From Hyaloraphidium curvatum (taxonomy: Eukaryota; Monoblepharomycota; Hyaloraphidiomycetes; Hyaloraphidiales; Hyaloraphidiaceae), in NCBI GenBank assembly GCA_025558095.1, contig JAIVFI010000020.1, positions 310,001 to 374,000 on the forward strand: 64,000 nucleotides of DNA, written 5' to 3'. Shown here piece after piece: positions 32,110 to 53,691 of this stretch. Under the pieces are notes generated by a model. That model was not told the origin of the DNA. It worked only from the letters and a program-made list of their open reading frames with translations, and searched no databases. Positions within the stretch are counted from its first letter, which is position 1; each line of letters opens with the position of its first letter. The translations under genes and the position numbers were made by a program.

Positions 32110-33996
32110 ATGCCGGGCAGTCCTGGTCCGTCGGTCGACAGGGTGGTGGTCATTCGTTGCGGCGGGGCCCAGGCCGCGTGCACCTGGGAGGCCGTCAGCA
32201 CCAACTACGAAGCCGAGCGCCGTGCCGGCAAGGTGGCCATCTGGGACGATGCCGACCACGAGCCCCATGTTACGCTGCGCGACCTGGTCCGCCTGAGGGA
32301 TGCCGCCCAGGCGGCTCGCTTCGCGGCGGGGAAGACTGTTGACTGTTTCGTCTGTGTTGGGAACCCACTCACGAGGGAGAAACTGGCTTGCGCGGTGCGG
32401 AAGGAGCTCCAGGGTACTTTCGTGAGGTTCCCGGCCGTCGTGCACCCCGCGGCATTCGTCTCGCCCACGGCAACGGTTAAGGAAGGCACCTACGTCGGTC
32501 CCTTTGCCCTGGTGCACACCAATGCCACCGTGGGCTCCTTCTGTATCGTCAACAGCCACGCAACGGTGGAGCACGATTGCGTCCTGGAGGACTTCTGCCA
32601 GCTGAACCCGCACGCGACCGTCGGGGGTTGCGCCAGGATCGGCCGCTACAGCGTGCTCGGTCTGGGTTCATCGGTCAGGGACAAGGCGACAATTGCTCCG
32701 CGATCCTTGATTGGGATGCAGGCGGCCGTCGTGCGGAACATCGCAGAGGTCGGTCGGACCTGGATCGGGGTGCCCGCGAAGCAGCTGCTTCCACCGCCCG
32801 TTGCCACCGGAAAGCCGGGACCAGGCGTGCTCAGGGGACTCCGGTGGTGCGGCATCAAGCCGCTGTCGTTTGAGTCCATGAAGCGGTACCTGGAAGAGAG
32901 CTTGAGGCTGAACCAGCTCACCAATGGCGGGCCGCTGCAGACCGTGCTCGGACAGAAGCTGGCCAGCATCACGGGCTCGTCCCGCGCAATCATCCCTTGT
33001 GCAAACGGGACCGCGGCGCTCCATGCCCTCGCTGCGGCCTGGTCGCTTAAGCTGGGCAAGCCCATCAGATGGGCAACTCAGGCTTTCACCTTCCCGCCGG
33101 CAATCCAGGGCTCCCTCTCTGGTTCTCTGGTTTTGGACAACGATCTTGAGCTCGGGGGCCCGTGCATGGCCTCCCTGGAGCGCTTTAAGGACGCGATCGA
33201 CGGCGTTGTGGTAACCAACGTGTTTGGCCTGCAGACCCGAATCCTCGAGTACGAGGCGTGGTGCAATCGGCACGGCAAGGTCCTGATCTTTGACGACGCG
33301 GCCACGCCCGTCGGGTTCCTGCCCGACGGCCGCAGCATCCTCGACGCCGGCAACGGATCCATCATCAGCCTGCACGAGACAAAACCGCTCGGCCGGGGCG
33401 AGGGCGGGGCGGTGTTTGTCGACGCCGAGATCGCGCCGTTCGTTTCGCGTGTGATCAACTTCGGCTTCGACACCGCCGCCGTCGTCCGCGTCGGCCTGCC
33501 GCTCGCCAGCAACTGGAGGATGTCGGACATTGCCGCCGCGGCCATCTGCGACCACCTGGACACGATCCTCAACCCCGCATGGATGTCGCACCACCAGGCC
33601 CTCGTGCGAAAGGTGCCCGGCCTGCTTCGGGCCCGGGGCCTCGACTTCGACACCTGCTTTTCCATTCAAGGGCCTACCATCCTGCCGTGTCTGCTTATCC
33701 GGGTCCCGGATCCCCTGATCGGGCGCGTCGACGAACTTTGCCGCTGGCTCTATTCGCAGGATCGGGAGATGCCCGTCGAGGCCAAGCATTACTACGTCCC
33801 GCTGGCCGATCGGCAGGCGGTGCCCAACGCCTGGGCCGTCTTCGATCGCAACATCTGCATCCCGTTCCATTCAGATCTCAGCCTCTCGGACATCGAGTGC
33901 GCGATGGACTCCGTCCTGGCAGGGATGCGGGCCAACATGCCTCAAGTTGGGCGAGCCCGGCCCGCGTCAGTAGAAGGGGCCGTTCATGTACAGTAA
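32110..33996 (+). CDS. Fusion: PglD/NeuD-like acyltransferase + DegT/DnrJ/EryC1/StrS aminotransferase
   Basis: One intronless frame of 628 residues with two domains. Residues about 10-225 resemble PglD/NeuD sugar N/O-acyltransferases: a Rossmann-like start (VVVIRCGGAQAA) and a left-handed beta helix with hexapeptide repeats, including the catalytic-type His in VEHDCVLEDF and a trimer-end TWIGVPAKQLL. Residues about 245-610 are a PLP-dependent sugar aminotransferase: CANGTAALHALAAAW, the cofactor Asp in IFDDAATPVGFLP (395-396) and the Schiff-base Lys 425 in LHETKPLGRGEGGAVF. Together they could aminate a 4-keto (or 3-keto) nucleotide sugar and acylate the amine. The families are mainly bacterial, so transfer is likely. 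A paralogue of the first domain lies at 52882-53691. Confidence 0.9.
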   Translation: MPGSPGPSVDRVVVIRCGGAQAACTWEAVSTNYEAERRAGKVAIWDDADHEPHVTLRDLVRLRDAAQAARFAAGKTVDCFVCVGNPLTREKLACAVRKELQGTFVRFPAVVHPAAFVSPTATVKEGTYVGPFALVHTNATVGSFCIVNSHATVEHDCVLEDFCQLNPHATVGGCARIGRYSVLGLGSSVRDKATIAPRSLIGMQAAVVRNIAEVGRTWIGVPAKQLLPPPVATGKPGPGVLRGLRWCGIKPLSFESMKRYLEESLRLNQLTNGGPLQTVLGQKLASITGSSRAIIPCANGTAALHALAAAWSLKLGKPIRWATQAFTFPPAIQGSLSGSLVLDNDLELGGPCMASLERFKDAIDGVVVTNVFGLQTRILEYEAWCNRHGKVLIFDDAATPVGFLPDGRSILDAGNGSIISLHETKPLGRGEGGAVFVDAEIAPFVSRVINFGFDTAAVVRVGLPLASNWRMSDIAAAAICDHLDTILNPAWMSHHQALVRKVPGLLRARGLDFDTCFSIQGPTILPCLLIRVPDPLIGRVDELCRWLYSQDREMPVEAKHYYVPLADRQAVPNAWAVFDRNICIPFHSDLSLSDIECAMDSVLAGMRANMPQVGRARPASVEGAVHVQ

Positions 33997-51572: not shown

Positions 51573-52630
51573 ATGGCGGCACCGTTCGCCCGCGCGCTGG
51601 CCTTTGCGCCGCGCTTGGCCCTGGGTGCGCCCGCCGCCGCCCGCGCCACCGCGGCGTCGCCCGCACCAGCTGCTCTCCTGCTCGCGGCCCGCACGCAGTC
51701 CGCCGCGGCCACATTCCCGCGCCGCCGTCGGCGCCGGCTGTACCCCGCGTCGGGCCCGCCCACCGCCGAGCAGGCCGTCAACAACATCCTCTACAACACG
51801 CCCCCGCCCAACCCGGAAAAGGCAAAGCGCCACATCCTCAACTGCCTCGTGTCCAACGAGCCCGGCGTGCTCTCGCGCGTGTCGGGCATCCTCGCCGGCC
51901 GCGGCTTCAACATCGACTCGCTCGTGGTGGCCAAGACCGAGGTGCCGGACCTGTCGCGCATGACCATCGTGCTGCAGGGCCAGGACTCGCAGATCGAGCA
52001 GGCCAGGCGCCAGCTCGAGGACCTGGTGCCCGTGTGGGCCGTGCTGGACTACACCAACACCTCGATCCTCGAGAGGGAGATGCTGATGGTCAAGGTGTCG
52101 ACCGTGCCCGGCAACTTCCCGGAGGAGCTGACGGAGGAGGAGGCGGAGCAGCTCGAGGAGCACGGGACGCTCAACACCGAGGTGCGTTTTCGCTCATGCG
52201 GGGCAAATTGGCCCTCTGCTGCTGGTCCCGCTTTCCCGGAATCACATGCTCACGCTCCCCCTTCCCTCCAGTCCCCCGGCATCTCTCCCCTCCTCTCCTC
52301 GGCCGTGCAGCGCGACGCCATCGTCCGCGTGGCCCGCCTGTTTGGCGGCGCCGTGGCCGACGTGACCCACGAGTCGGTAATCATCGAGCTCTGCGCAAAG
52401 AGCTCCCGCGTGGACGCCTTCCTCAAGCTGCTCAAGCCGTACGGGATCATCGAGGCCGCGCGGAGCGGTTGGTTTTCTCGATCCCCCGGACGCCGTCCTG
52501 ATTGCTGATCGTTGCTGTCCATCCAGGCGTGATGACGATGCCCAGGTCCATGATGGACGACCTCTACGACATCGAGGCCGAGGACGAAAAGGGTCCGGCC
52601 GTGGATGCCACCATGCTTCCCCCCGGGTAA
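51573..52630 (+). CDS. ILV6: Acetolactate synthase regulatory (small) subunit
   Basis: Ilv6 activates acetolactate synthase in mitochondria and gives valine feedback control of branched-chain amino-acid synthesis. Three exons (51573-52181, 52272-52467 and 52527-52630) give 302 residues. An Arg/Ala-rich presequence of about 50 residues precedes the ACT domain: LNCLVSNEPGVLSRVSGIL, RGFNIDSLVV, LSRMTIVLQGQDSQIEQ. The second half has the conserved LFGGAVADVTHESVIIEL and KPYGIIEAARS, joined by splicing to GVMTMPRS. The acidic loop FPEELTEEEAEQLEEHG is also seen in fungal Ilv6. Both introns restore family sequence. Confidence 0.95.
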
Positions 52631-52881
52631 TGCTGGATGGCGCGTTGGGGCTTTGGCGAATGTATGACGCGAGAACTGGAAAAAGAGATGAAATATCCGG
52701 CACCGCCGCACCCGTTCGGTCCGCATGGAAGCTCTTGCTAAGCCGTCTCATCTTGTTGGTGAAAGGATGGCGGGAAGCTTCGTGGCCGTACGGGCGGACG
52801 TGTCGGGGCTTCGGTGGCCGTTGCGGATCTTCGGGTCCACCCCGGGCCGGCGACTCCGCCCGCAAAGCAACTACCGATGCA

Positions 52882-53691
52882 ATGGCCGCCCCTCTCCCTC
52901 CCGTAAAGGCCGCCGGCTCCGCGGATTCCAATGCCGCCGGTTCCCCGCATTCCGCGTCGCGTCATGACCCCGGCCGACTCGCGATCCTCCTGCGGTGCGG
53001 CGGCGCGCAAGCGGCGGTGATGTGGGAGGTCCTGCGCGACAAGTACGCCGCGGAAACATCGGCCGGCCGCGTAGCATCCTGGGACGACGGCCCGCGGATC
53101 CACCGCACGCTCGGGGGGGTGGCACACCTGCGGAACGCGGAGGAAGTGCGCGCCTGGCTCGCATCCCGCGCGCCGGACGGCGTGCACGCGTTCGTCTGCC
53201 ACGGGGAACCCAAGGCGAGGAAGAAGCTCGTGCCCGAGCTGGAAGCCGCGCTGGAGGGCTACAGAGTGGAGTTCCCCGTGGTCGTGAGCCCCTGGGCCCT
53301 CGTGACGCGCACGTCGGTGATCGGCCGGGGGACGTACGTCGGATCTTTCGCCAACGTCGGCAACGCCTGCGTTGTGGGCGAGTTTGCCCGCGTCGCGGGG
53401 TCCTCGGTGCTCGGACACGACTGCGTGCTCGCCCCGTACGCGCAGCTCAACGGGAAACTTGCCGTCGGCGGAGGATGCGAGCTCGGGGAGGGGTGCCTGA
53501 TCGGGATGGGATGCGTGGTGCGGGACCACGTCAGGGTGGCGCCCTGGACGACGCTCGGGATGGGGGCGGTGCTCGCGAGGAGCATCGAGGAGCCCGGGCA
53601 GACGTGGGTGGGGATCCCGGCGAAGCCGTTGGCGCGAAAGCGGGCTGCGGGAGCCGTGGTGGGAGGCGAGGAGAAGGAGAGCCGGCTGTAA
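52882..53691 (+). CDS. PglD/NeuD-like sugar acyltransferase (stand-alone paralogue)
   Basis: An intronless frame of 269 residues, paralogous to the first domain of the fusion at 32110-33996. Shared signatures include RCGGAQAAVMWEVL against RCGGAQAACTWEAV, VASWDD against VAIWDD, GTYVGSFA against GTYVGPFA, and the end TWVGIPAKPL. The left-handed beta helix keeps the catalytic-type His in LGHDCVLAPYAQL and the hexapeptide turns GCELGEGCLIGMGCV. There is a 30-residue disordered N-terminus and no aminotransferase domain. In PglD the Rossmann strand has a GxGGHA loop; here the loop is RCGGAQA in both copies. It could acylate the same amino sugar or a different one. Confidence 0.85.
   Translation: MAAPLPPVKAAGSADSNAAGSPHSASRHDPGRLAILLRCGGAQAAVMWEVLRDKYAAETSAGRVASWDDGPRIHRTLGGVAHLRNAEEVRAWLASRAPDGVHAFVCHGEPKARKKLVPELEAALEGYRVEFPVVVSPWALVTRTSVIGRGTYVGSFANVGNACVVGEFARVAGSSVLGHDCVLAPYAQLNGKLAVGGGCELGEGCLIGMGCVVRDHVRVAPWTTLGMGAVLARSIEEPGQTWVGIPAKPLARKRAAGAVVGGEEKESRL

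Follow-up and report, generated by a model that had tools for sequence, protein, structure and literature searches.

The window that we analyzed, a 64,000-nucleotide stretch of Hyaloraphidium curvatum DNA, sits in a 709-kb contig of a genome of 31.9 Mb in 55 contigs (G000), and it contains a single frame that opens with ATG, runs without an internal stop, and was correctly delimited in the initial annotation (Table 1). Pfam recognized both halves of the product above its curated cut-offs, with Hexapep at residues 121-154 (2.6e-10) and DegT_DnrJ_EryC1 at residues 257-601 (9e-22). A 400-aa antisense open reading frame overlaps the gene, and in DNA of 65% GC long frames are common by chance; we therefore regard the frame as coding because homology spans both of its halves, and not because of its length. 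The catalytic residues that had been proposed from the sequence also proved correct, with His155 in the motif VEHDC, Asp395 and Asp396 in FDDAA, and Lys425 in HETKPLGRGEGG. The fusion is real, and it represents a new joining of known enzyme types in an unexpected host.

Table 1. Features of the fused gene and of a related gene in the window (positions are those of the window).
Feature	Position	Strand	Details
Fusion gene, NeuD/PglD/VioB-like N-acyltransferase + L136-type DegT aminotransferase	32110..33996	+	628 aa, no intron
N-acyltransferase (AcT) domain, residues 10-228	32137..32793	+	Rossmann-like N-terminal part + left-handed beta-helix
His155 codon, predicted general base of AcT	32572..32574	+	invariance; alignment with the His of PglB, PglD and VioB
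Pro/Gly-rich linker, residues 229-240 (PPPVATGKPGPG)	32794..32829	+	sequence; low model confidence
Aminotransferase (AT) domain, residues 241-612, L136 type	32830..33945	+	L136 match, tree, model
Asp395 codon, predicted PLP ring-nitrogen binder	33292..33294	+	invariance
Lys425 codon, predicted internal-aldimine lysine	33382..33384	+	invariance, L136 alignment
Second AcT, same family, unfused	52630..53691	+	homologous part 52981-53640

That the host is a fungus, as had been assumed, was borne out by a Lys2 aminoadipate reductase encoded in two exons (684 and 747 bits), an Ilv6 whose best match is the yeast-type Ilv6, and a DUF2456 gene, identified with Pfam, that neighbours the fusion gene; the presence of the flagellar gene PACRG (144 bits) suggests a flagellated, early-branching fungal lineage. 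The neighbourhood had been described as ordinary, which holds for the fungal genes on both sides but not for the unfused acyltransferase of the same family further along the window. The two halves of the fusion gene have GC contents of 0.66 and 0.645 and GC3 values of 0.80 and 0.83, close to those of the DUF2456 gene (0.66 and 0.84), so that composition shows no sign of recent arrival. Elsewhere in the assembly, an epimerase-like gene gives identical scores at C33:155086-156118 and at C53:1017-2049, which suggests that C53, a 20-kb contig, is duplicated or redundant; an rDNA pattern had no match in the assembly.

The NCBIfam model for NeuD/PglB/VioB acetyltransferases (TIGR03570) matched residues 37-224 of the N-terminal half with an E-value of 2.4e-42, and given that the score of 144.8 bits lies under the cut-off of 160.8 we term the domain NeuD/PglD-like and do not assign it to TIGR03570. 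Its nearest solved relatives are VioB (7txp; 1.3e-18), PglB (1.7e-18) and PglD (5e-18), and a profile of the domain and its kin placed VioB first (6.8e-44); VioB, whose structure was solved with TDP-4-amino-4,6-dideoxyglucose, acetylates viosamine. The AcT and AT domains were modelled separately, each with its own alignment rows. The AcT model, of medium quality (pLDDT 74.5, pTM 0.49), combines a beta-helix with an alpha/beta region at its N-terminus, and it aligned with PerB, PglD (Z 13), PglB, WeeI and VioB at Z 12-14, against about 8 or less for unrelated chains, at an overall rmsd of 11-13 Å, so that how the two parts sit against each other cannot be trusted. The top match was shared by PerB, a GDP-perosamine acetyltransferase. 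With VIA-align the top 15 structure matches were sugar N-acetyltransferase entries, and Foldseek alone gave weak matches (best E 2.4e-3). Pfam reported no match to PglD_N (PF17836) in the domain; an alpha/beta part is predicted there, and residues 8-212 align with those of PglD and PerB. His155 is invariant across 12 relatives, and an H-D or H-H motif near its position is kept in all 18 homologue translations from the genome. An assignment to the LpxA/LpxD type gave lower scores and was rejected.

The acyltransferase belongs to a family with at least 16 members in this genome, which form one group with 99/99 support. The window copy is on the shortest branch, is placed next to the 15 remaining members (91/82, not starred), and lies nearest the outgroups, while the unfused copy in the window (42% identity to it, Hexapep 2.2e-13) falls in the same 99/99 clade. 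Given this grouping, and the short branch of the window copy and its closeness to the outgroups, the family has probably expanded within this fungal lineage, the fused copy having changed least. Three of the copies (L071, L074 and L077) match in two or three frames separated by tiny gaps, which may reflect gene decay or errors in the sequence.

For the aminotransferase half, the best solved relative was Mimivirus L136 (2.6e-39), the best bacterial enzyme being DesI (2.4e-14), and a profile of its clade scored 336 bits to L136 versus 122 to the next solved aminotransferase. Identity to L136 (7mfo, 7mfp, 7mfq) is 36-37% over 248 aligned residues, and the model of residues 241-609 superposed on 7mfo with Z 41.1 and an rmsd of 2.0 Å over 343 residues; the next match had Z 33.9, and GDP-perosamine synthase tied with DesI for second place. 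Lys425 and Asp395 are invariant across 22 relatives, every invariant column of the alignment is retained, and Lys425 lines up with the lysine replaced in the L136 variant of 7mfp (K185A). By its clade, its lysine and aspartate, and its fold type I structure near that of L136, the domain is of the L136 type. Unlike L136, which is a separate protein, it is fused behind an acyltransferase and encoded on a fungal chromosome.

In a tree of 43 rows, in which bacterial chromosomes are sparsely covered, the domain grouped with L136, 28 viral and three bacterial rows with 100/100 support, and within that clade in a smaller set with a huge-phage pair (95/90), on a long branch of 1.48; like the E-values given here, this result depends on the sequences sampled. 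The seven other DegT genes of the fungus, all above the cut-off with strong scores, fell in the other clade. The tree placement led us to reject a VioA- or WecE-like assignment, and the annotated VioA of Burkholderia glumae indeed belongs to the other DegT clade, scoring 62 bits with the window domain versus 224 for the phage enzyme. Relatives occur in a 735-kb phage (LR756501; 37% identity over 93%) and at 33 loci of viral contigs (L033-L065), these phage and viral enzymes reaching at most 37-38% identity and sharing the signature H-(H/E)-T-K-x-x-G-x-GEGG, and on three bacterial plasmids (28-29% identity). Two scans of 84,980 prokaryote species with strict patterns returned no confirmed relative, which we do not take to mean that none exist, given the clade members on plasmids of Desulfolutivibrio and Ruegeria. 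The Desulfolutivibrio plasmid encodes a 635-aa protein (L078:2095-4002, +) whose L136-type aminotransferase follows some 290 N-terminal residues without a Pfam match, with a WbqC gene nearby.

Given that the domain lies in a clade of virus, phage and few bacterial enzymes, apart from the seven other DegT enzymes of the fungus, it was probably acquired by transfer, which the initial annotation had raised as a possibility, and it was probably drawn from a pool of such enzymes in viruses and bacteria.

Gene order around these relatives bears on function. At 26 viral loci with an L136-type aminotransferase, the fetched DNA held a 4,6-dehydratase in 21 and a NeuD-like acyltransferase in 15 (raw counts without a random control and with near relatives included), and in some loci the NeuD-like gene directly adjoins that of the aminotransferase. 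On a Peribacillus plasmid the two are likewise separate and adjacent, beside RfbA and RfbB. The huge-phage aminotransferase, among the closest full-length relatives, lies beside a GDP-mannose 4,6-dehydratase (GMD) and a formyltransferase. Unlike the fungal protein, the phage and viral enzymes are unfused and adjoin dehydratase and NeuD-like genes; none of the 26 viral aminotransferase frames examined was an AcT-AT fusion. Each enzyme type is known, and their fusion was not met elsewhere in the sequences searched. A WbqC-family gene often directly follows the aminotransferase in viral contigs (L034, L036, L037, L043, L045, L046 and L055), an order that hints that WbqC may modify the amino sugar.

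The initial annotation had proposed searching the genome for a 4,6-dehydratase, and two such genes are present, with exons at C21:552601-553485 and C1:1122889-1123755; the best solved relative of the C21 exon is Mimivirus R141 (6vlo), at 130 versus 98 bits. RmlA was not found above its cut-off in the genome (39.6 versus 360.65 bits), which favours a UDP over a dTDP sugar. In a search for UDP-GlcNAc 4,6-dehydratase (PglF/Polysacc_synt_2) the highest score was 53 bits, reached by SDR genes to which PF16363 matches as well, and no clear member emerged; no dedicated glycosyltransferase was identified. The genome has, in addition, two GMD-like genes, on C18 and C24.

In Mimivirus, UDP-Vio4NAc is produced by R141, then L136, then the N-terminal half of L142, and L136 accepts both UDP and dTDP sugars with glutamate as the amino donor (PMC9614988). 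The N-terminal domain of L142 resembles the window acyltransferase in being PglB-like with a catalytic histidine and in acting after L136 (PMC9614988), a likeness by description and not by sequence, but it is fused to a glycosyltransferase and not to an aminotransferase; the bacterial VioA and VioB differ in being two separate proteins. Because the aminotransferase is nearest L136, the acyltransferase nearest VioB, and the C21 dehydratase nearest R141, we propose, with a probability of roughly 0.6, that the fusion aminates UDP-4-keto-6-deoxyglucose and N-acylates the product within one polypeptide to give UDP-Vio4NAc. UDP-glucose would first be converted to UDP-4-keto-6-deoxyglucose by a 4,6-dehydratase whose gene lies elsewhere in the genome. 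The C-terminal domain, carrying PLP on Lys425, would then replace the 4-keto group with an amine, probably taken from glutamate, yielding UDP-4-amino-4,6-dideoxyglucose (viosamine). Acylation of the 4-amine would fall to the N-terminal domain, in which His155 would serve as the base and acetyl-CoA or another acyl-CoA as the donor, and UDP-Vio4NAc would go into a surface glycan.

A two-activity role in nucleotide amino sugar synthesis, as first suggested for this frame, is thus the best reading on the relationships to L136, VioB and R141 and on the other sugar-enzyme fusions described below. The bacillosamine enzymes PglE and PglD had been offered as the parallel, and the reaction types are indeed the same; L136 with the N-terminal half of L142 (or VioB), and with them 4-acetamido-4,6-dideoxyglucose, fit better, since the aminotransferase is far nearer L136 than any bacterial enzyme (TM to target 0.89, versus 0.73 for PglE) and no clear PglF-type dehydratase was found.

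The fusion is one of a set. Two genes, L012:295-2475 (+) and L013:667-2622 (+), on C39 and C21, place behind a WecD-like GNAT a WecE whose match passes an NCBIfam cut-off; the GC content of L013 is 0.553, against 0.65 for the window, and it is perhaps a later arrival. In L009:895-2574 (+; C24:606464) an FdtA-type 3,4-ketoisomerase precedes a DesV/QdtB-like aminotransferase. In an 846-aa frame at L014:436-2976 (-; C5:903220-905274), an RfbH/ColD-like DegT protein whose lysine is replaced by His precedes a GDP-fucose-synthase-like reductase, a pairing that would suit a GDP-dideoxy sugar such as colitose. The domains of these fusions also lack introns, and each fusion joins what we take, from known family biochemistry, to be enzymes of neighbouring steps. 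That the window gene belongs to a set of at least four other nucleotide-sugar fusions and 16 acyltransferases strengthens the amino-sugar reading.

Sugar aminotransferases of this fold act on several sugars, and the same chemistry might therefore be directed at GDP-4-keto-6-deoxymannose, giving N-acylated perosamine, or at mixed 4-keto sugars. The GMD beside the nearest homologues, in the 735-kb phage and a viral contig, the formyltransferase of the phage locus and the two GMD-like genes of the fungus count against viosamine, and the structural ties of PerB and of GDP-perosamine synthase lean the same way. On the other hand, the aminotransferase is nearer L136 and the best sequence match of the acyltransferase is VioB, both viosamine enzymes, and GMD is also required for GDP-fucose and for the ColD-like L014, so that we judge perosamine unlikely, if a serious contender. 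It is also conceivable that the two domains do not catalyse successive steps, the acyltransferase serving other amines or transferring another acyl group and the fusion only coupling expression, given that the other members of its family carry no aminotransferase and must obtain their amines elsewhere; we think this rather improbable, since separate aminotransferase and NeuD-like genes are adjacent in many viral loci and on the Peribacillus plasmid, and the four other fusions of the genome also link related steps.

Two further explanations concern the history of the gene and not its chemistry. The gene might be old in fungi and vertically inherited, its odd position in the tree arising from missing eukaryote sequences, and its neighbour-like GC and GC3, the long aminotransferase branch, and a comparison set of viral, phage and bacterial enzymes beside those of the fungus itself all agree with this. 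Yet the 100/100 grouping is with viral and few bacterial enzymes and not with the other DegT genes of the host, and the fusions have no intron whereas the dehydratase and GMD matches are divided among exons, which leaves vertical descent improbable. Finally, adjacent genes might have been joined by chance through mis-assembly, or the gene might be a pseudogene, as the broken frames of three related acyltransferase copies could lead one to suspect; an unbroken frame over both domains, the retention of the catalytic residues and of the invariant aminotransferase columns, and a long contig with fungal genes flanking on both sides make this very improbable.

Searches of the open-access literature turned up no fungal pathway for viosamine or perosamine. 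Viosamine is described as encountered only in bacteria, the amoeba that Mimivirus infects not producing it (PMC10117803), and neither viosamine nor aminotransferases come up in a survey that covers 491 fungal taxa (PMC8092308). The fusions that share this genome suggest a fungus able to make "bacterial" sugars undescribed for fungi in the literature surveyed, and the set is of more interest than a single stray gene would be. A broader proposal, which we advance tentatively and as a doubtful one, is that purpose-built fusions let the fungus produce a full range of nucleotide amino and dideoxy sugars of bacterial type, and that 16 acyltransferases derived from one acquired gene supply different N-acyl caps to a surface glycan; if true, the sugars and their varied caps would parallel, in a eukaryote, the diversity of O-antigens or of giant-virus fibrils.

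A fungus with the complete set of steps would widen the known chemistry of the fungal wall, and gene removal in it would allow the use of such sugars to be tested in a cellular eukaryote. The fused enzyme would itself be a tractable one-pot route to Vio4NAc, and a fungal gene tied to giant-virus and huge-phage enzymes bears on the movement of genes among viruses, bacteria and eukaryotes.
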